Assembly: GCF_913776855.1 (NCBI RefSeq)
Contig: NZ_CAJYQD010000006.1
Span: 45,758 to 109,757 of the forward strand
DNA length: 64,000 bases
Direction of reading: 5' to 3'
Source: an uncultured Sphingomonas sp.
GTDB taxonomy: Bacteria; Pseudomonadota; Alphaproteobacteria; Sphingomonadales; Sphingomonadaceae
Below the pieces are notes generated by a model. It saw only the letters and a list, made by a program, of their open reading frames with translations. It did not search any database and was not told where the DNA came from. Shown here one piece after another: positions 53,124 to 63,958 of this stretch. Numbering within the stretch: position 1 is the first letter of the stretch; every line of letters starts with the position of its first letter. The position numbers were made by a program, and so were the translations under genes.

Positions 53124-53981
53124 TCAGAAAGCTGCGGTCAGCGCGACGACGACCGTCCCGCCGGCGATGTTGCCGGTCCCGTCCTGCCCCCGGCTGAAGC
53201 TGGGGCGCAGATACGCGGCGTCGCGGTTGGAAATGTCGGTGTCGACATAGCTGACGTTCAGGGTCAGGTTGCGATACGTCGCATCCGCCCCGACCGACCA
53301 GTCCCAATAGCTGCCGGTCGGCGACACGGCGGTGGCGTTCGGGCCCAGGCCATCCTGCCCCCAGCTATGGCCGATATGCGCCTTGGCGGTGATCGGGCTG
53401 CCGGTGACGGGCAGGGCGGCATCGCCCCACAGGTACAGATTATCGTCCTTCGCGCCCGGTCGGGTATAGACGCCGCTGGCCGCATCGGCACCGGTCGCAT
53501 ACCATTTGCCGATCGCCTGCTGCTTGGGTGCATAGGCGACTCCGGCGGTCAGGGACGCCGGGCCGGCGGTGCCGGTCAGCTTGGCATAGGGTTCGGCAAA
53601 GTCGGTCTTGTCCGCGCCACCGGGATAGACATACCAGGTCAGCCCCAGGTCGAGCGTCGCGCCATCGGCGATCGCGGTCTTGAAGCCGGCGATCAGGTCC
53701 AGTTCCATGTTCGCGCCGCCGAACGTGCCCCAACCGGCCAGGTTCGACGCCCAGGTGCCGATATAGGCGCCGCTGTCATGCGCGATGGTGATGCCGCCCT
53801 GCACCGCCATTTCCTGATCCGACTGCGACACGCCACGGAAGCGATAGTCGGAGGCGATCGCGGCCGATCCGCTGACGGTAACGGCGGCTGGCGGTTCGGT
53901 AGGCTCGGGTGCGGCCTGTGCGTGCGCGGTGGCCGGGAATGCTGCCAGCGCGACGGCGATGGCGGCAGGACGGAAGTTCAT
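53124..53981 (-). CDS. TorF family putative porin
   Basis: Signal peptide ...TAHAQ; GSAAIASDYRFRGVSQSDQEMAVQGGITIAHDSGAYIGTWASNL. Confidence 0.92.
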   Translation of the reverse strand: MNFRPAAIAVALAAFPATAHAQAAPEPTEPPAAVTVSGSAAIASDYRFRGVSQSDQEMAVQGGITIAHDSGAYIGTWASNLAGWGTFGGANMELDLIAGFKTAIADGATLDLGLTWYVYPGGADKTDFAEPYAKLTGTAGPASLTAGVAYAPKQQAIGKWYATGADAASGVYTRPGAKDDNLYLWGDAALPVTGSPITAKAHIGHSWGQDGLGPNATAVSPTGSYWDWSVGADATYRNLTLNVSYVDTDISNRDAAYLRPSFSRGQDGTGNIAGGTVVVALTAAF

Positions 53982-54156: not shown

Positions 54157-54738
54157 GTGAGGATCGCGATCATCGACACCAGCACGACCCGCGCGGCGAT
54201 CATCGCCGAAGGTCTGCGTGAAGCGGGGCTGGACGATCAGGTCGTGATCGATCCCGCCGGGCCGATCGTCCGCCAGATCGAGGCGTGTGCGCCCGAGGTC
54301 GTCCTCATCAATCTCGAAAATCCCGGTCGCGACCTGCTGGAGGATTTCTTTGCGATGTCGCGCGCGCTTGACCGGCCGATCGCGATGTTCGTTGACCAGT
54401 CGGACGGTGACAGCGCGCTGGCGGCGGTTGATGCCGGGGTATCGGCCTATGTCGTCGATGGCCTTGCCAAGCAGCGGATCAAGCCGGTGCTGGATGTCGC
54501 GATCCGCCGGTTCCAGGCGTTTTCGCGGCTGCAGGCGGAATTGGCCGAAGCGAAGACCGCGCTGGCCGATCGCCAGACGATCGACCGGGCGAAGGAGATC
54601 CTGATGCGGCGGCGCGGGATTGACGAACCGGCCGCCTACGCGCTGCTGCGCGGGCACGCGATGCAGTCCAACCGCCGCATCGCCGAAGTGGCGGAGGCGA
54701 TCGTTACCAGCGACGCGCTGATGGGAGACCTGCCGTGA
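54157..54738 (+). CDS. nasT: ANTAR-domain response regulator NasT
   Basis: GTG start; receiver-like N-term; C-terminal ALADRQTIDRAKEILMRRRGIDEPAAYALLRGHAMQSNRRIAEVAEAIV ANTAR motif. Confidence 0.93.
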   Translation: MRIAIIDTSTTRAAIIAEGLREAGLDDQVVIDPAGPIVRQIEACAPEVVLINLENPGRDLLEDFFAMSRALDRPIAMFVDQSDGDSALAAVDAGVSAYVVDGLAKQRIKPVLDVAIRRFQAFSRLQAELAEAKTALADRQTIDRAKEILMRRRGIDEPAAYALLRGHAMQSNRRIAEVAEAIVTSDALMGDLP

Positions 54739-55946
54739 GCCTCGAGCGTTTCCGCATCGGTTTCCTGCCGCTGGTCGATGCCGCGCTGCCGATCCTGGCG
54801 CACGAACTGGGCTTTGCCGAGGAACAGGGCGTCGGCATCGATCTGGTCCGCGACGTGACCTGGGCTGCGGTGCGCGACCGGCTGCTCTATGGCCATACTG
54901 ACGCCGCGCACATGGTCGCCCCGCTCGCCATCGCGGCAAGCCTGGGCCGCGACCGGCCGGCGGTGCCGATGGCGGTGCCGTTCGTGCTGGGATTGAACGG
55001 CAACGCCATCACGTTTTCGATGGCGCTTGGTGCGGCGTGCGGGCTGGGCGGCGAGCTGGGCGATCCGGTGACGGTCGGTGCGGCGCTGAAGGCGGTGGCC
55101 GATGCCCGTGTGGCGGCGGGTCGACGGCTGCGCTTCGGCGTGGTGCATCGCTATTCCAGCCACAATTACATGCTGCGTGACTGGCTGGCGGGGATCGGTA
55201 TCCGCCCGGACATCGACGTGGAGATCGTCGTGACCAGCCCGCCCTTTGCGGCTGACGCCCTGGCGGCGGGCGAGGTGGACGGCATCTGCGTGGGGGAGCC
55301 GTGGAACTCGATCGCGGTGGATCGCGGGGTCGGCCGGATCGCGCTGGCGACCGCGCAAATCTGGCGGCGCGGCGTCGAAAAGGTGCTGGCGATGCGCGCC
55401 GACACCGCCGCCGAACGCAGCGATGCGACGCTGCGGCTGATCCGCGCACTGCACGCCGCCGCGGCCTATTTCGTCGATCCCGACACGGTCGGACAAAGTG
55501 CCGCGATCCTCGCCCGGCCCGCGTATCTCGACGCGCCGGTCGATGCGATCCTGCGCGCGATCACCGATCATATCCGCGTGGTGCCGGGCGGGGTGCCGGT
55601 CCATTATCCCGACTTCATGTTCCAATATCGCGAGGCGGCGAACTTCCCGTGGCGCAGCCAGGCGGCGTGGCTGTATGCCCAGATGACGCGCTGGGGCGAA
55701 CGACCGTTCGATGCGGGAGAGGCAGCGATCGCAGCCGGGACGTTCCGCCCCGACCTGTACCGCGCCGCGCTGGCTGGATCGGATGCGCCGCTGCCCGGAG
55801 CGAGTTCCAAGCTGGAGGGGGCGTTGGGCGGGCCGATCGGCGTAGGATCGACGCAAGGACGGTTGATGCTGGGCAGCGACCGGTTCTTCGACGGGCGGTC
55901 GTTCGATCCCGACGACATTCCGGCGTATCTGTCCGGCCTGCCCTGA
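54735..55946 (+). CDS. nasS: NasS-type nitrate sensor / CmpA-NrtA-like periplasmic-binding-fold protein without signal peptide
   Basis: SLERFRIGFLPLVDAALPILAHELGFAEEQGVGIDLVRDVTWAAVRDRLLYGHTDAAHMVAPLAIA; 4-nt overlap with nasT. Confidence 0.92.
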   Translation: MSLERFRIGFLPLVDAALPILAHELGFAEEQGVGIDLVRDVTWAAVRDRLLYGHTDAAHMVAPLAIAASLGRDRPAVPMAVPFVLGLNGNAITFSMALGAACGLGGELGDPVTVGAALKAVADARVAAGRRLRFGVVHRYSSHNYMLRDWLAGIGIRPDIDVEIVVTSPPFAADALAAGEVDGICVGEPWNSIAVDRGVGRIALATAQIWRRGVEKVLAMRADTAAERSDATLRLIRALHAAAAYFVDPDTVGQSAAILARPAYLDAPVDAILRAITDHIRVVPGGVPVHYPDFMFQYREAANFPWRSQAAWLYAQMTRWGERPFDAGEAAIAAGTFRPDLYRAALAGSDAPLPGASSKLEGALGGPIGVGSTQGRLMLGSDRFFDGRSFDPDDIPAYLSGLP

Positions 55947-56012
55947 ACACTATTTTGCTGCGCTTGCGAAAGGGGCTTGTGTCCGACCGGCGAATCAGGC
56001 AGCTTGATCGCA

Positions 56013-56071
56013 GCCCGGCAATGGCGTCGGGCACGACATAGCAGCGACATGCCTCTCCAGCGTCGGGGAGG
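56013..56071 (+). ncRNA. ANTAR-target antiterminator leader (two hexaloop hairpins P1 and P2)
   Basis: P1 GCCCGGC-AATGGC-GTCGGGC (56013-56032); P2 CCTCTCC-AGCGTC-GGGGAGG (56052-56071); both loops have A at position 1 and G at position 4. Confidence 0.8.
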
Positions 56072-56121
56072 TTCCCGCTGAGCGATAACGGGCACCGGCC
56101 CGTCGTCCGACACAGGCAACG

Positions 56122-56170
56122 AAGCCGCCAGAACGCGCCCGCAATGGGCCGCCGTTCTGGCGGCTTTTTT
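56122..56170 (+). terminator. Leader terminator before nitrate transporter
   Basis: AAGCCGCCAGAAC/GTTCTGGCGGCTT perfect 13-bp stem then TTTT, 25 nt before ATG. Confidence 0.93.
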
Positions 56171-56194
56171 CGTTTCCGGCTCTGGGAGGCAGGA

Positions 56195-57439
56195 ATGGCA
56201 ACGGCATACTGGCAAGACGCGCAGGAACGACCTGAGACGACCGACAGCTTCTGGAACAGCGGGCACCGGCCGACGCTGATCGCAGCGTTCCTGTATTTCG
56301 ACCTGGCGTTCATGGTGTGGGTGCTGCTGGGGCCGCTCGCCCCGGACATCGCGCTGACGCTGGGGCTGTCGCCTGCGCAAAAGGGGCTGATGGTCGCGGT
56401 GCCGACGCTGGCCGGGGCGGTGTTGCGCGTCGTCAACGGGCTGGCGGTCGACCGGATCGGGCCGAAGCGGGCGGGCGCGATCAGCCAGATCATCGTGATC
56501 GCTGGCTTGTTAGCGGCATGGCTGCTGGCGGTCGACAGCTTTGGCGGCACCTTGGCGCTGGGCGTGATCCTGGGCTTTGCCGGGGCGTCGTTCGCCATCG
56601 CGCTGCCGCTTGCCAGCCGCTGGTATCCGCCGGAGCATCAGGGCAAGGCGATGGGCCTTGCCGGCATGGGCAATTCGGGTACGGTGCTGGCCGCGCTGTT
56701 CGCGCCGGCGCTGGCCAGAGTGTTCGGCTGGAACACGGTGCTGGGGCTGGCGTGCCTTCCGCTGACCCTCGTCTTCTTCGCCTATATGGCGATGGCGAAG
56801 GACGCGCCGAACGCGCCCGCGCCGCGCTCGCTGACCGCGTATCTCAGCCCGCTGCGTCAGGGCGATGCGTGGTGGCTGATGGCATTCTATGCTGTCACTT
56901 TCGGCGGTTTCGTCGGGCTGGCGGCCAGCCTGCCGGTCTATTTCACCGATCAGTTCGGGCTGTCGACCATCACGGCGGGCTATTGCACAGCCGCCTGCGT
57001 CTTTGCCGGGTCGCTGGTGCGGCCGATGGGCGGGGCGCTCGCCGACAGGATCGGCGGGGTGAAGGCGCTGACCGTCGTGTTCGTCGTCGCCGCGCTGGCG
57101 CTGGTCGGGGTGAGTGCGGCGGGCAGCGTCGAGGTGGCGCTGGCGCTGTTCGTCCTGGCGATGCTGGCGCTGGGCGTCGGTAACGGATCGGTGTTCCAGC
57201 TGGTCCCGCAGCGCTTCGCCGCCGAGATCGGCGTGATGACCGGGCTGGTCGGCATGGCCGGCGGGGTCGGGGGCTTCTACCTCGCCTCCTCGCTCGGCCT
57301 CGCCAGGCAATGGACCGGCAGCTTCGCGCCCGGCTTCCTGATCTTCGCTGCGCTGTCGCTGCTCGCGCTAGCCGGGCTGACGCTGGTGAAGGCCCGCTGG
57401 CGTCGCCGCTGGGCGACTGCCGATGGCGTGCGGATCTGA
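56195..57439 (+). CDS. narK: MFS nitrate/nitrite transporter (NarK/NasA type)
   Basis: FYFDLAFMVWVLLGPLAPDIALTLGLSPAQKGLMVAVPTLAGAVLRVVNGLAVDRIGPK; GASFAIALPLASRWYPPEHQGKAMGLAGMGNSG. Confidence 0.93.
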   Translation: MATAYWQDAQERPETTDSFWNSGHRPTLIAAFLYFDLAFMVWVLLGPLAPDIALTLGLSPAQKGLMVAVPTLAGAVLRVVNGLAVDRIGPKRAGAISQIIVIAGLLAAWLLAVDSFGGTLALGVILGFAGASFAIALPLASRWYPPEHQGKAMGLAGMGNSGTVLAALFAPALARVFGWNTVLGLACLPLTLVFFAYMAMAKDAPNAPAPRSLTAYLSPLRQGDAWWLMAFYAVTFGGFVGLAASLPVYFTDQFGLSTITAGYCTAACVFAGSLVRPMGGALADRIGGVKALTVVFVVAALALVGVSAAGSVEVALALFVLAMLALGVGNGSVFQLVPQRFAAEIGVMTGLVGMAGGVGGFYLASSLGLARQWTGSFAPGFLIFAALSLLALAGLTLVKARWRRRWATADGVRI

Positions 57440-57452
57440 CCCTCTTCCACGG

Positions 57453-59942
57453 ATGACCTCCATGCAATATGAACCCATCTCCGCGGCCCAAGGCGATACC
57501 CGCGAACATCTGATCGTCATCGGCAACGGCATGGCCGGGTGCCGCGCGGTCGAGGAACTGCTGGCGCGCAACGCGGACCGTTACCGGGTCACGATCTTCG
57601 GCGCCGAACCGCTGGTGAACTATAACCGGATCATGCTGTCGCCGGTCCTGGCGGGCGAGAAGACGTTCGACGAGATCGTCATCAACGGCCTCGACTGGTA
57701 TGCCGATAACGGCATCACGTTGTTGAGCGGCGATCCGGTGGTCGCGATTGACCGGGCCGCGCGGACGGTGACTAGCCGCAGCGGGCTGACGCTCAACTAT
57801 GACCGGCTGCTGATCGCGACCGGTTCCGATCCGTTCGTCATCCCGGTGCCGGGCAGTGACCTGCCCGGCGTCATCAGCTTCCGCGACATGCAGGATGTCG
57901 AGCATATGCTGGCGGCCGCCGATCGCGGCGGTAGCGCGGTGGTGATCGGCGGCGGGTTGCTGGGACTGGAGGCGGCGCATGGCCTGTCGCTGCGCGGCAT
58001 GACGGTGACCGTGCTGCACATCATGCCGACACTGATGGAGCGGCAGCTGGACGAGGCGGCCGGCTGGTTGCTGAAAACCGCACTGGAGGCGCGCGGACAG
58101 GCGATCCTGACCGGGGCCGACACGGCGGCAATCGTCGGCGATGGCCGGGTAGAGGCACTGCATTTGAAGGACGGGACCGTCATTCCCGCCGATCTGGTGG
58201 TGATGGCGGTCGGCATCCGCCCCTCGGTCGCGTTGGCGCGTGCGGCGGGGCTGGACGTCGGACGCGGGATCAAGGTCGACGACCACATGGTCACCTCCGA
58301 CCCCGCGATCCTCGCGGTCGGCGAATGCGTCGAGCATGACGGGCAGGTCTATGGTCTGGTTGCGCCGCTGTGGGACATGTGCCGGGCATTGGCCAATGGC
58401 CTGGTCGAGACGCCGAGCGGCTACAAGCCCGCCCCGACCGCGACCAAGCTGAAGGTCGCCGGCCTCGACGTATTTTCGGCCGGCGACTTCAGCGGTGGCG
58501 ATGGCGCGGAGGACATCGTGCTGCGCGATGCGTCGCGCGGCATCTACAAGCGGGTCGTGATCAGGGACGACCGTATCGTCGGCGCGGTGCTGTACGGCGA
58601 TACTGCCGATGGCAACTGGTATTTCGACCTGTTGAAGAAGGGCGAGAGCGTCGCCGACATTCGCGACGCCCTGATCTTCGGCCAGTCCTTCGCCTCGGGA
58701 GGGGGGCAGGCGGACCCTAACGCGGCCGTTGCGGCGCTTTCCGACGATGCGGAAATCTGCGGCTGCAACGGCGTGTCCAAGGGCAAGGTGCTGGCGTGCA
58801 TCGACGGTGGTGCGCACAGCCTCGACGCGGTGCGATCGGGGTGCAAGGCTTCGGCAAGCTGCGGCTCCTGCACTGGCATCGTCGAAAGCCTGCTGGCGCT
58901 GCGGCTGGGCGGTGAGGTCGATGCGGGGCCGAGGACGATGTGCAGATGCACCTGCTTCGGCCATGACGATGTCCGCCGGGAAATCGTTGCGCAGGACATG
59001 CGCTCGATCCCCGAAGTGATGCAGAAGCTGCACTGGTCGACGCCCGATGGCTGTTCGTCCTGCCGCCCGGCGCTCAACTATTATCTCCTTTGCGCACTGC
59101 CCGGCGATTATAAGGACGACCAGCAGAGCCGCTTCGTGAACGAGCGGATGCACGCCAACATCCAGAAGGACGGCACCTATTCGGTCGTGCCGCGCATGTG
59201 GGGCGGCCTGACCAACCCAAGGGAACTCCGCGCGATCGCCGATGTCGTGGAGAAGTTCAATGCGCCGATGGTGAAGGTCACCGGCGGCCAGCGGCTCGAC
59301 ATCTTCGGGATCAAGAAGGAGGACCTGCCCGCCGTCTGGGCCGATCTGAACGCGGCAGGGATGGTGTCGGGCCACGCCTATGGCAAGTCGCTGCGCACGG
59401 TGAAGACCTGTGTCGGCAGTGAATGGTGTCGCTTCGGCACGCAGGATTCGACTGGCCTCGGCGTGAAGATCGAGCGCGCTACCTGGGGCAGCTGGATGCC
59501 GCACAAGTTCAAGATCGCCGTATCGGGCTGTCCCCGCAATTGCGCCGAGGCGACGATCAAGGATTTCGGCATCGTCTGCGTCGACAGCGGCTACGAACTG
59601 CATGTCGGCGGCAATGGCGGGATCAAGGTCCGCGCCACCGACCTGCTGTGCAAGGTCGCGACCGAGGCGGAGGCGATGGAGATGTGCGCCGCCTTCATCC
59701 AACTGTACCGCGAAGAGGCCCGCTATCTGGAGCGGACCGCGCCGTGGATCGAGCGGGTCGGCCTTGGCTATGTCCAGTCGCGGCTGCTGTCTGACGCGGA
59801 GCAGCGTGCGGCATTGGCGGGCCGCTTCTGGTTCTCGCAGCAATTCTGCCAGGACGACCCCTGGGCGGCGCGGGTCGCCGGGGCCGAACGCGAAATCCAT
59901 GCGCCGATGGCGCGCTTTCAGCCCGTGGAGGAACTAGCATGA
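57453..59942 (+). CDS. nirB: Nitrite reductase (NAD(P)H) large subunit
   Basis: EHLIVIGNGMAGCRAVEEL...; BFD CGCNGVSKGKVLACI...CGSCTGIV; siroheme/4Fe4S VGSEWCRFGTQDS...VSGCPRNCAEATIKDFGIV. Confidence 0.96.
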   Translation: MTSMQYEPISAAQGDTREHLIVIGNGMAGCRAVEELLARNADRYRVTIFGAEPLVNYNRIMLSPVLAGEKTFDEIVINGLDWYADNGITLLSGDPVVAIDRAARTVTSRSGLTLNYDRLLIATGSDPFVIPVPGSDLPGVISFRDMQDVEHMLAAADRGGSAVVIGGGLLGLEAAHGLSLRGMTVTVLHIMPTLMERQLDEAAGWLLKTALEARGQAILTGADTAAIVGDGRVEALHLKDGTVIPADLVVMAVGIRPSVALARAAGLDVGRGIKVDDHMVTSDPAILAVGECVEHDGQVYGLVAPLWDMCRALANGLVETPSGYKPAPTATKLKVAGLDVFSAGDFSGGDGAEDIVLRDASRGIYKRVVIRDDRIVGAVLYGDTADGNWYFDLLKKGESVADIRDALIFGQSFASGGGQADPNAAVAALSDDAEICGCNGVSKGKVLACIDGGAHSLDAVRSGCKASASCGSCTGIVESLLALRLGGEVDAGPRTMCRCTCFGHDDVRREIVAQDMRSIPEVMQKLHWSTPDGCSSCRPALNYYLLCALPGDYKDDQQSRFVNERMHANIQKDGTYSVVPRMWGGLTNPRELRAIADVVEKFNAPMVKVTGGQRLDIFGIKKEDLPAVWADLNAAGMVSGHAYGKSLRTVKTCVGSEWCRFGTQDSTGLGVKIERATWGSWMPHKFKIAVSGCPRNCAEATIKDFGIVCVDSGYELHVGGNGGIKVRATDLLCKVATEAEAMEMCAAFIQLYREEARYLERTAPWIERVGLGYVQSRLLSDAEQRAALAGRFWFSQQFCQDDPWAARVAGAEREIHAPMARFQPVEELA

Positions 59943-60277
59943 TCGGCGAATGGCTCGACATCGGCTGGGTCGATGAAATTCCCCTGCGTGGCAGCCGCAC
60001 GGTGCAGGTCGATGGCGGCGACGACATCGCGGTGTTCCGGACTGGCGAGGGCAAGGTCTTCGCGCTGCGCGACCGCTGTCCGCACAAGCATGGCAAGCTG
60101 TCGCAAGGGATCGTTCATGGTGGCGCGGTGGCCTGCCCGCTGCACAATTGGCGAATTTCGCTGACGACCGGTGAGGCGCTGGGCGAGGATCGCGGTTGCA
60201 CGCCGACCGTGCCGGTAAAGGTAAACGGGGGGCGGGTGCTGATCTGTCGAGCCTCAATGCTGAAGGCGGCGGCGTGA
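59939..60277 (+). CDS. nirD: Nitrite reductase (NAD(P)H) small subunit
   Basis: MIGEWLDIGWVDEIPLRGSRTVQV...DRCPHKHGKLSQGIVHGGAVACPLHNWRI Rieske motif. Confidence 0.94.
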   Translation: MIGEWLDIGWVDEIPLRGSRTVQVDGGDDIAVFRTGEGKVFALRDRCPHKHGKLSQGIVHGGAVACPLHNWRISLTTGEALGEDRGCTPTVPVKVNGGRVLICRASMLKAAA

Positions 60278-60390: not shown

Positions 60391-62979
60391 ATGGCTATCC
60401 GAACCACCTGCGCCTATTGCGGGGTCGGCTGCGGCATTCGCGCGACCGTCACCGGCGAACGCAGCGTCCGGATCGAGGGCGATCCCGACCATCCCGCCAA
60501 TCGTGGACGGCTGTGTTCGAAGGGCACCCATCTGGGCGAGACGGTCGGGCTGGAAGGGCGCCTGCTTGTGCCCATGATCGGCAAGCGCCGCGCCAGCTGG
60601 GACAAGGCGCTCGATCTGGTCGCGCGGCGCTTTCGCGATACGATCGAACGCTACGGTCCGGGCAGCGTCGCCTTCTACGTCTCCGGCCAGTTGCTGACCG
60701 AGGATTACTACGTCGCCAACAAGCTGATGAAGGGCTTTATCGGTTCGGCGAACATCGACACCAACTCGCGACTTTGCATGTCCAGCGCGGTGGCCGGGCA
60801 TATGCGTGCGTTCGGGGAGGATGTGGTCCCGGCGTCGTATGACGACCTCGACGCCGCCGACCTGATCGTGCTGGTCGGGTCGAACACCGCCTGGTGCCAT
60901 CCGATCGTCTATCAGCGAATCCGCGCGCGCTGCGATGCCGGGGCAAAGCTGGTCGTGATCGATCCGCGCCGCACCGAAACCGCCGAACAGGCCGACCTGC
61001 ACCTCGCCATCCGGCCGGGCAGCGACGTCGCGCTGATGAACGGGCTGCTCGCATGGTGTCGGGAGACGGGGGCGATCGATGCGGCGTTCCTGCGCGATCA
61101 TGTGACGATGCCCGACGATTTCTGGGCGCGTACGGGTGAGGGTAGCGACCTGTGGTCGGTCGCGCGCACCTGCGACCTGGCCGCCGCCGACCTGCGCCGC
61201 TTCTACGAATGGTTCGCCGCGACCCCGCGCACCGTGACGATGTTCAGCCAGGGTGTAAACCAGTCCCTGACCGGCACCGATCAGGTCAATACGATCCTCA
61301 ACGTCCACCTTGCCACCGGCCGGATCGGCAAGCCGGGTGCGCAGCCCTTCTCGATCACCGGACAGCCCAATGCTATGGGCGGTCGCGAAGTCGGCGGTCT
61401 CGCCTCCACGCTGGCCGCGCATATGGACTTTGCCGAGCGGAACCGCGCCATCGTCCAGCGTTTCTGGGCTTCCCCGACGATGGCGGCCAAGCCGGGGCTG
61501 AAGGCGGTCGATCTCTTTCGCGAGCTGGGGCACGGCCGGATCAAGGCGCTGTGGGTGATGGCGACCAACCCCGCCGTGTCGATGCCCGATGCCGGCCGCG
61601 TACGCGAGGCGCTGGCGGGCTGCCCCTTCGTCGTGGTCAGCGACGTGATCGCCGACACGGATACGAGCGTTCACGCCCATGTCCGCCTGCCCGCCGCCGC
61701 ATGGGGGGAAAAGGACGGGACGGTCACCAACAGCGACCGCACCGTCAGCCGCCAGCGCGCGCTGTTTCCCCTGCCCGGCGAGGCGAAGCCCGACTGGTGG
61801 ATCATCAAGGAAGTCGCCCGGCGCATGGGGTGGAAGACCGCCTTCGCCTATGATCGTCCCGCCGAGATCTGGCGCGAGCATGTCCGGCTGTCGGCCTATC
61901 GCAACGATGGCGCGCGGCTGTTCTCGCTGGCCGGGCATGGTGCCGGGGGCAATGCCGATTACGATGCAATGGCACCGTTCCGATGGGGTGGGACCCCCTT
62001 TTCCGATGGACGTTTCCCGACCCCCGATGGTCGTGCGCGGATGGTCCCGGTGGTGCAGAGGCCGCTGGCCGCGCCGCTGAACGATTGGCCGCTGACGCTC
62101 AATACCGGGCGCTATCGCGACCATTGGCATACGATGACCCGTACCGGCCTGGCTCCAAGGCTTGCCCGGCACCGGGAGGAACCGCTGGTCGAGGTGCATC
62201 CCGACGACGCCAAGCGGCTGGCGATCGGCGATGGCGGTCTGGCGCGGGTGACGACGCCGCAGGGTGACAGCCTCTATCGGGTGCGGGTGACCGACAGCCA
62301 GCGGCCGGGTGAGTTGTTCGCCCCGATCCACTGGACCGATCGCACATCGAGTGGCGGGCGGACCGGGCTGCTGCCGCGCCCGCTGACCGATCCAATCTCC
62401 GGGCAGCCGGGGTTCAAGTCGACGCCCGCTGCCATCGCCGCCGTCGAGACGCGCTGGCGCGGGTTCCTGATCGTTGCCAAGAAGCTGGATTGCCGTCCCG
62501 AATGCTTGTGGGCGACCCGTGTCGCGGTTCCGGCGGGGACCCTGTGGGAGCTGGCCGGCAATGGCGACGCCGCGCGGCTGGATGCATGTTTGCCTGCTGG
62601 CGAGCGGATCGAGGCGATCGACCGGGCGCGCGGCACCCGGCGGATTGCGGTGCTGGCCGATCGGCGACTGGTGGCGGCGCTGCTCCTGACCGAAAATGGC
62701 GAACTGCCTACGCGCGACTGGCTGATCGCGCAGTTGGGCGAGGCGCAGGCAGCGCCGACCGTGCTGGCCGGGCGGGCACCCGGCGCAGCGGTCGATCGCG
62801 GACCGATCATCTGCAGTTGTTTCGACATCGGGATGCGCACCATCGTCGCGGCGATCCGCGACCAGCGGCTGGCCGATGTCGCCGCGATCGGCGCCGCGAT
62901 CGGCGCCGGCACCAATTGCGGGTCGTGCCGCCCTGCGCTCGCCCGCCTGCTTGCCGAGGAGAAGACCCATGCCGCATGA
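60391..62979 (+). CDS. nasA: Assimilatory nitrate reductase catalytic subunit with C-terminal BFD-like [2Fe-2S] domain
   Basis: TTCAYCGVGCGIRATV...GRLCSKGTHLGE...; C-term IICSCFDIGMRTIVAAIRDQ...GTNCGSCRPALARLL. Confidence 0.96.
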   Translation: MAIRTTCAYCGVGCGIRATVTGERSVRIEGDPDHPANRGRLCSKGTHLGETVGLEGRLLVPMIGKRRASWDKALDLVARRFRDTIERYGPGSVAFYVSGQLLTEDYYVANKLMKGFIGSANIDTNSRLCMSSAVAGHMRAFGEDVVPASYDDLDAADLIVLVGSNTAWCHPIVYQRIRARCDAGAKLVVIDPRRTETAEQADLHLAIRPGSDVALMNGLLAWCRETGAIDAAFLRDHVTMPDDFWARTGEGSDLWSVARTCDLAAADLRRFYEWFAATPRTVTMFSQGVNQSLTGTDQVNTILNVHLATGRIGKPGAQPFSITGQPNAMGGREVGGLASTLAAHMDFAERNRAIVQRFWASPTMAAKPGLKAVDLFRELGHGRIKALWVMATNPAVSMPDAGRVREALAGCPFVVVSDVIADTDTSVHAHVRLPAAAWGEKDGTVTNSDRTVSRQRALFPLPGEAKPDWWIIKEVARRMGWKTAFAYDRPAEIWREHVRLSAYRNDGARLFSLAGHGAGGNADYDAMAPFRWGGTPFSDGRFPTPDGRARMVPVVQRPLAAPLNDWPLTLNTGRYRDHWHTMTRTGLAPRLARHREEPLVEVHPDDAKRLAIGDGGLARVTTPQGDSLYRVRVTDSQRPGELFAPIHWTDRTSSGGRTGLLPRPLTDPISGQPGFKSTPAAIAAVETRWRGFLIVAKKLDCRPECLWATRVAVPAGTLWELAGNGDAARLDACLPAGERIEAIDRARGTRRIAVLADRRLVAALLLTENGELPTRDWLIAQLGEAQAAPTVLAGRAPGAAVDRGPIICSCFDIGMRTIVAAIRDQRLADVAAIGAAIGAGTNCGSCRPALARLLAEEKTHAA

Positions 62980-63958
62980 CGACTTTCCCGCCGGATCGGT
63001 CTGGCTGGTCGGGGCGGGGCCGGGTGATCCGGACCTGCTGACGCGCAAGGCCGCGCGGTTGATCGCGGCGGCGGAGATCGTGTTCTACGACGCGCTGATC
63101 GGGCCGGGGGTGCTGGACCTGATCGCGACAGGCGTGGAGCGGGTGAGCGTCGGCAAGCGATCCGGCCGCCATTCGAAGGATCAGGCTACGATCGACACGC
63201 TCATCGTCACCGCCGCGCTTGCCGGCAAACGGGTGGTACGCCTGAAGGGGGGCGACCCCGCGATCTTTGGCCGGACGGCCGAAGAGGTCACCGCCTGCAG
63301 CGCAGCCGGTGTTCCCGTGCGCATCTGCCCCGGCATTACCGCCGCCAGCGCCGCCGTCGCTTCGGCCGGGAGCAGCCTCACGCTGCGCGGTGTTGCCCGA
63401 CGGCTGACCTTCGTCACCGCCCATGGGCAGGCCGGGCAGCCGATCGACCTCGATTGGAATACGCTGGCAGCGCCGGCTGCGACCTTGGCGATCTATATGG
63501 GCCGGGCGGCGGCGGCCTGCGTTGCGCAGCAACTGATTGCGGCCGGGCGCGCGGCGGATACGCCGGTGCTGGTCGTGGTCAACGCATCGCTGCCCGACGA
63601 ACGGGTCATTCGCGGGCGCCTGTCGGCGCTGGCTTTTCTGGTCGAAGCGATCAGCGCCACCGACCCCGCGGTGCTGATCGTGGGAGAGGCGGTGGCGACG
63701 GATTCCATCATTTTCCCCCGCGCGGCCGGGGTGATTCCATCATTTTCCCCCGCGCGGCCGGGGTTGAGGGGAGCGCGCGGAGTGGTTCGAGATGGGAGCG
63801 ATTCCGGCAATCGATCAGGCCGAACCGCGAATATGGAACTTTTTTGCGAAAGTTTGTTGACAGTAAAGTTTCGCCCCCGTAGAGGGCTGTTCACCGGACG
63901 GGGCGAGTTACTCGCTTCTGCTGAGACACTGAAAAGGCGAAGCAGGCGCCCTTCCTAA
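62969..63958 (+). CDS. cobA: Uroporphyrinogen-III C-methyltransferase (C-terminal tail altered by tandem repeat frameshift)
   Basis: SVWLVGAGPGDPDLLTRKAARLIAAAEIVFYDALIG...VRLKGGDPAIFGRTAEE...CPGITAASAAVA; core ends near AVLIVGEAVATDS. Confidence 0.9.
   Translation: MPHDDFPAGSVWLVGAGPGDPDLLTRKAARLIAAAEIVFYDALIGPGVLDLIATGVERVSVGKRSGRHSKDQATIDTLIVTAALAGKRVVRLKGGDPAIFGRTAEEVTACSAAGVPVRICPGITAASAAVASAGSSLTLRGVARRLTFVTAHGQAGQPIDLDWNTLAAPAATLAIYMGRAAAACVAQQLIAAGRAADTPVLVVVNASLPDERVIRGRLSALAFLVEAISATDPAVLIVGEAVATDSIIFPRAAGVIPSFSPARPGLRGARGVVRDGSDSGNRSGRTANMELFCESLLTVKFRPRRGLFTGRGELLASAETLKRRSRRPS
63701..63764. repeat. 32-bp perfect tandem duplication inside cobA 3' end
   Basis: GATTCCATCATTTTCCCCCGCGCGGCCGGGGT at 63701-63732 and again at 63733-63764. 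Confidence 0.97.
63829..63885 (+). promoter_or_regulatory. Putative strong (rrn-type) promoter
   Basis: A/T-rich upstream stretch AATATGGAACTTTTTTGCGAAAG, TTGACA (63857-63862), N17, weak -10 TAGAGG (63880-63885); window ends in boxA-like TGTTCTTT. Confidence 0.45.

Follow-up and report, generated by a model that had tools for sequence, protein, structure and literature searches.

The closest described relatives of the system considered here are leader RNAs bound by ANTAR proteins. In Paracoccus, the NasS-NasT complex dissociates with nitrate or nitrite, whereupon NasT forms oligomers that bind the nasA leader (PMC3795266). The eut leaders require a hairpin with a six-nucleotide loop (hexaloop) that overlaps the terminator, and such a hexaloop is also present in nasF and amiE leaders (PMC3369931). 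How the ANTAR dimer uses two hexaloops that it cannot bind simultaneously is an open question in the field, for which a model of successive binding, i.e., recruitment then antitermination, has been put forward (PMC8934654). Here, we analyzed a nasT-nasS locus and the leader downstream of it in a 64,000-nucleotide stretch of DNA (“the window”) from an uncultured Sphingomonas sp. (contig NZ_CAJYQD010000006.1). We are fairly confident that this leader provides the cis-acting part of a nitrate switch of the NasS-NasT kind that operates by transcription antitermination. The switch is of a known NasT/ANTAR type; what appears to be new is a third hexaloop, together with a spacer hairpin, Pc, that is found clade-wide.

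An initial sequence-only reading of the window had proposed that a NasS-NasT pair acts on its cognate leader, an ANTAR-type RNA ending in a terminator, in front of a transporter-nirBD-nasA-cobA operon, and this assignment is supported. NasT matches the Pfam ANTAR model (Table 1) and is the only ANTAR protein detected in its own genome, where the nas leader is also the single credible leader, both counts being bounded by the 85% completeness of that genome. The next independent leader match there (E 0.001) lies inside a long open reading frame, looks like a chance hit, and was rejected. Hairpins P1 and P2 are likewise as originally described in position, stems, and loops. The account of a “two-hexaloop leader” has to be amended, however: the established model requires a hexaloop that overlaps the terminator, which neither P1 nor P2 does, P2 ending 50 nt upstream of it, and a third hexaloop hairpin, P3, had been missed. 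All three loops in the window leader carry A at position 1 and G at position 4 (A1/G4), as expected of ANTAR target RNAs, and it is P3, not P2, that overlaps the terminator 5′ arm. Specifically, the 3′ arm of P3 (GCC, 56124–56126) is the basal part of the terminator 5′ arm, while the 5′ arm of the hairpin and the opening bases of its loop fall outside the terminator stem; a 3′ arm shared with the terminator base is the hallmark of ANTAR antitermination. The terminator itself has 14 continuous outer pairs (56122–56135 with 56153–56166), a free energy (dG) of −36.3 including the inner hairpin, and a run of six T that ends at 56170, ~24 nt before the transporter ATG. The P1–P2 linker measures 19 nt and the P2–P3 gap 43 nt, the latter holding Pc and the lower P2 stem. 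These two elements and the promoter-like elements at 55956–56005 were, like P3, unlisted in the sequence-only reading. A scan of the leader against Rfam gave no hit that reached the gathering score, and the weak matches included no family of ANTAR type, although a suitable model may not exist there.

Relatives were gathered by NasS and NasT similarity, and structure statistics were computed from 37 non-redundant leaders of the window’s clade, with 12 leaders sampled from a sister clade. Each of the 109 nasS loci for which sequence continues downstream has the leader, and the hexaloops are conserved in relatives, where the sequence-only reading had named an absence of conservation as grounds for giving it up. 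Hexaloops downstream of nasS occur at 1.67 per 300 nt vs. 0.09 in shuffles under the same loop rule, and the 115 nt before P3 hold on average 1.51 in the clade vs. 0.034 in shuffled sequence, with other loop classes at 0–0.16; a chance origin is excluded. A1 and G4 are jointly kept in 31/37 leaders for P1 and 37/37 for both P2 and P3, and the C-G closing pair of P2 is invariant. P1 is the least conserved hexaloop, its loop varying more than the other two, and the sister clade lacks it, having P2 and P3 only. The stems of P1, P2, and the terminator are 95% paired, and 13 of their 28 pairs changed on both sides, including 5/7 in P1 and 5/7 in P2, with the terminator (helix 3) also covarying. In total, two-sided changes filled 77 cells vs. 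21.7 after shuffling, a value reached by 0 of 500 shuffles. Kinship among sequences can exceed shuffles without any structure, but it is an unlikely source of this signal because slid versions of the stems fail the same test and the stems agree with the known motif. Computed directly were the genes, the conservation of all three loops, the covariation in the stems of P1, P2, and the terminator, and the overlap of P3 with the terminator. For P3, compensatory changes come solely from differences between lineages.

The stem of P3 is indeed invariant within the clade, with matched changes across lineages (GGC/GCC, AGC/GCT, TGGC/GCCA, and CAGC/GCTG). Its GGCAANGA is identical in 37/37 leaders though it lies outside the terminator stem, and so is GGCAANG (37/37, loop position 3 excepted). 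The edge of conservation is sharp at the P3 5′ arm, the bases just upstream being variable. Beyond the clade, we considered 40 further nasS-downstream regions, most of them from other alphaproteobacteria, with a second NasT lineage of sphingomonads also represented: an A..G hexaloop sits on the terminator base in 22 of them, while for the remaining 15 letter pairs the count is 0–3 each.

In our reading, P1 and P2 would recruit NasT and P3 would bring about antitermination, and from the published systems and the conserved elements we infer NasT binding, its order, and the nitrate response as follows. When nitrate and nitrite are absent, NasS would hold NasT, the leader would form the 56122–56170 terminator, and transcription would stop before the transporter gene. 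When either is present, freed NasT would bind the hexaloops as they emerge from RNA polymerase, P1 and P2 first for recruitment and P3 next. With P3 held closed, the AAGCC/GGCTT base of the terminator beside the U-run would be lost, so that the polymerase would read through into transporter-nirBD-nasA-cobA. P3 is thereby the element that probably keeps transcription going with nitrate present. In folding calculations, P3 is in the best fold, at no cost, as long as the terminator 3′ arm is still missing, and costs 8.2 kcal/mol afterwards; these modeled energetics are those expected of a hairpin held by protein during a short time window. Several observations weigh against this reading. The window's P3 stem is just 3 pairs long (4–6 in several relatives) and would therefore need protein to beat the terminator. 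In Paracoccus, activity needed hairpin HI only, and HII seemed to aid attenuation. Finally, eut function is destroyed by a linker of 14 nt or +20 nt (PMC3369931, PMC8934654), compared to the 43-nt gap between P2 and P3 here.

How many hexaloops take part is less settled. P2 and P3 could be the functional pair, as in standard dual-hexaloop leaders, with P1 an extra of little effect, and we hold this variant to be a tentative but credible minority option. These two loops keep A1/G4 without exception, unlike P1, they are all that the sister clade has, and many other proteobacterial NasT leaders carry a single upstream hexaloop ~20 nt before P3. However, the P1 stem covaries at a fixed distance from P2, which argues that P1 is under selection, and three-loop leaders recur (L135, L148, L149, L191, and L197). 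The mean number of hexaloops upstream of P3 was 1.51 in the window’s clade, as given above; the sister clade averaged 0.92 and the 22 further leaders 0.73 (0.02–0.03 in shuffles). Three-hexaloop leaders were found elsewhere in L135, L148, L149, and L181, and L191 and L197 provide two more that do not belong to the class. A third loop thus recurs as an option, and it is the rule in the window’s clade. Five leader matches in one genome (G588) were dropped, the cluster examined (L179) having no upstream hexaloops. A sister-clade genome (L180, G265:C1:2112500-2121000, and L186) carries one NasT-type leader ahead of the transporter, another ahead of nirB, and a third following nasS, which form a small NasT regulon.

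Next, we compared NasT with proteins of known structure. A phmmer search matched the structures of Rv1626, EutV, NasR, and AmiR, and the predicted architecture, a receiver-like domain followed by ANTAR, is that of NasS-NasT systems. In an alignment with EutV, for which residue numbers were counted by hand, the RNA-contact residues Arg142, Lys149, Glu160, Tyr164, and Met172 are kept; the first four contact G4 in EutV (PMC8934654). Asn replaces the Asp of the EutV “LMD”, the expected phospho-acceptor, as would fit a NasT controlled by NasS and not by phosphorylation. Lys143, a cross-chain contact that reaches the partner’s hexaloop in EutV (PMC8934654), corresponds to Gln in the window. Across the window lineage, this position holds K/R in 0/112 NasT (Q/A/T/E/H/G/D instead) vs. 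76/76 in other proteobacterial NasT. Since many of the 112 are close kin and a few duplicate a single locus, the loss of Lys143 probably represents one evolutionary change. Lys143 does not define the ANTAR domain, and the EutV K143A/K147A double mutant loses just ~5-fold in affinity (PMC8934654). A tie between Lys143 loss and long P2–P3 spacing was considered and dropped, some lineages with Lys also being long-spaced. The second NasT lineage of the same family (L139, L140, and L142–L149; NasS ~45–50% identical) retains Lys143, and its P3 is of the type CAGC-AAAGCC-GCTG or CAGC-AGAGCC-GCTG.

Loop-to-loop distances differ between the two intervals, i.e., 36–39 nt from P1 to P2 in nearly all clade leaders vs. 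44–64 nt from P2 to P3. Within the longer interval, Pc keeps its pairing in nearly all clade leaders despite widely diverged sequence (mean z −1.33, 24/37 leaders below −1; sister clade mean 0.04), although the window leader itself scores only −0.5. Our guess is that Pc shortens the P2–P3 gap by folding. Known linkers span 5–12 nt in eut, and 2–25 nt was the range used for ANTAR RNAs in an actinobacterial survey (PMC8164766). A more elaborate proposal would be a three-station relay in which oligomeric freed NasT loads on P1 and P2 and passes to P3 over the folded spacer, the loss of Lys143 then reflecting protein and RNA changing together, with the published linker-length rule not holding; we regard this as rather doubtful. 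Conversely, P1 and P2 alone could be the NasT target, as in the sequence-only reading, and stop termination at a distance, through polymerase modification or sterics, P3 being mere terminator sequence. The nearly fixed P1–P2 spacing next to a variable P2–P3 interval would fit, as would a 19-nt linker within the 2–25 nt range. This is nonetheless improbable in light of the invariant GGCAANG outside the terminator stem, a P1 loop that is the most variable of the three and missing in the sister clade, and an A..G loop that recurs across the class at the base of the terminator.

We propose that the leader is probably transcribed from a promoter of its own. A TTGNNN-17-CANNTT pattern precedes P1 in 35/37 leaders of the window’s clade, 0/12 of the sister clade, and 0.3% of shuffles; a scan with the sigma-70 consensus, which is enterobacterial, left this promoter-like pair unmatched. 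Moreover, 105 of the 109 leaders lie directly after nasS, while at the other four loci (L003, L043, L059, and L066) ~1–1.7 kb of other DNA splits nasS from the leader, and both the leader and the promoter-like motif remain beside the transporter, the conserved motif at 55956–55971 traveling with them. That the leader stays with the transporter across these inserts argues for its being part of the operon and for its having a separate promoter. The inserts have long reading frames; L003 and L059 share the same insert, and the best-looking frame in L043 is on the minus strand. Only two exact copies of TGCTGCRNNTGCGAAA, from the motif at 55956–55971, were found in the genome, one before the nas leader and one (L182, G000:C20:58865) just ahead of TTGACC and preceding a mannose-1-phosphate guanylyltransferase-like gene; the motif is possibly a shared activator site.

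These observations bear on the last two alternatives. The minimum-energy fold of 55944–56200 (z −3.7) contains a long outer stem, P0, in which CUUGUGUC pairs with GACACAGG and the 3′ arm has bases in common with P3, but that P0 is a real switch element competing with P3 is very hard to credit, as its aligned bases mismatch in relatives, where the stem is not kept, and, if the promoter is correctly placed, the transcript would start only downstream of the P0 5′ arm. An ordinary nasS terminator, with an unrelated promoter further downstream for transporter-nirBD-nasA, would match the location after nasS but is next to inconceivable for a leader with conserved hexaloops, ~24 nt between T-run and ATG, and a habit of staying whole beside the transporter where other DNA has come to lie between nasS and the operon.

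The surrounding genes are listed in Table 1, and their order, nasT-nasS-(leader)-transporter-nirBD-nasA-cobA, is widely kept among relatives. NasS resembles NrtA and the NrtC regulatory domain in homology searches and would by that resemblance be the NrtA-like nitrate-binding protein of a NasS-NasT pair; inspection of its N-terminus made no signal-like segment evident. GGGAGG precedes the transporter ATG. Many relatives (L035, L041, L046, and others) have ~1.2 kb between transporter and nirB, room for another gene that is absent in the window. Divergent from nasT, the minus strand encodes a Gcw_chp-family protein of unassigned function (53124–53981).

Table 1 Genes and leader elements of the nas locus, in window coordinates.
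Feature	Position	Strand	Description
nasT	54157–54738	+	GTG start; ANTAR antiterminator, receiver-like N-terminal domain; Pfam ANTAR 68.7 bits
nasS	54735–55946	+	NrtA-related nitrate/nitrite sensor, cytoplasmic-looking; NMT1_2 201 bits
Conserved motif TGCTGCGCTTGCGAAA	55956–55971	+	From leader alignment; upstream of leader promoter, activator site?
Promoter-like TTGTGT-17-CAGCTT	55977–56005	+	Ends 7 nt before P1
P1 hexaloop hairpin	56013–56032	+	GCCCGGC-AATGGC-GTCGGGC; 7-bp stem, one G-U; loop A1 and G4
Lower P2 stem	56042–56046 with 56076–56080	+	CAGCG with CGCTG; minimum free energy fold
P2 hexaloop hairpin	56052–56071	+	CCTCTCC-AGCGTC-GGGGAGG; 7-bp stem, one G-U; loop A1 and G4
Pc spacer hairpin	56088–56103	+	ACGGGC-ACCG-GCCCGT; between P2 and P3
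P3 hexaloop hairpin	56115–56126	+	GGC-AACGAA-GCC; overlaps terminator 5′ arm
Intrinsic terminator	56122–56170	+	14-bp outer stem, inner hairpin, T6
Transporter	56195–57439	+	NarK-type nitrate/nitrite transporter of the major facilitator superfamily; TIGR00886 278.8 bits, under model cut-off 311.7
nirB	57456–59942	+	TIGR02374 918 bits
nirD	59939–60277	+	TIGR02378 86.3 bits
nasA	60391–62979	+	Assimilatory nitrate reductase; C-terminal BFD-like [2Fe-2S] domain; Pfam/NCBIfam
cobA	62966–63958	+	Uroporphyrinogen-III C-methyltransferase; TIGR01469 267.2 bits

We found no description of three hexaloops in an ANTAR antitermination leader in the accessible literature, which describes two, a weak negative; an RNA binding the mycobacterial ANTAR protein PdtaR has three predicted hairpins, but it is a titrating RNA and not a terminator leader (PMC8131098). 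A natural three-hexaloop leader with near-fixed P1–P2 and variable, folded P2–P3 intervals makes the roles of recruiting and terminator-blocking loops testable, and lets the distance of a linker be told apart from its folding. It also cautions that searches tuned to two loops and a short linker can choose the wrong pair, as in the sequence-only reading.

Like the NasS-NasT/nasA systems of Paracoccus denitrificans, Bradyrhizobium, and Azotobacter, the locus has nasT-nasS immediately ahead of its nitrate genes (PMC3795266, PMC5424462, PMC6759348) and a leader of ~200–250 nt with hairpins and terminator, NasT being released there by nitrate/nitrite. It differs in having three hexaloops and a spacer hairpin instead of the published HI/HII or two-hairpin motif, and a NasT without an equivalent of EutV Lys143. 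With EutV/eut of Enterococcus faecalis it has in common the A1/G4 hexaloops, the C-G closing pair, and a last hexaloop on the terminator 5′ arm (PMC3369931, PMC8934654), whereas eut has two hexaloops with a 5–12 nt linker instead of three with 19- and 43-nt linkers, and EutV is phosphorylation-dependent where NasT has Asn at the phospho-acceptor position. Finally, NasR/nasF of Klebsiella oxytoca offers a motif of two hairpins whose loops are of the same type, and nitrate-responsive antitermination (PMC7496416), achieved with a one-component NIT-ANTAR sensor and two hairpins rather than with NasS-NasT.

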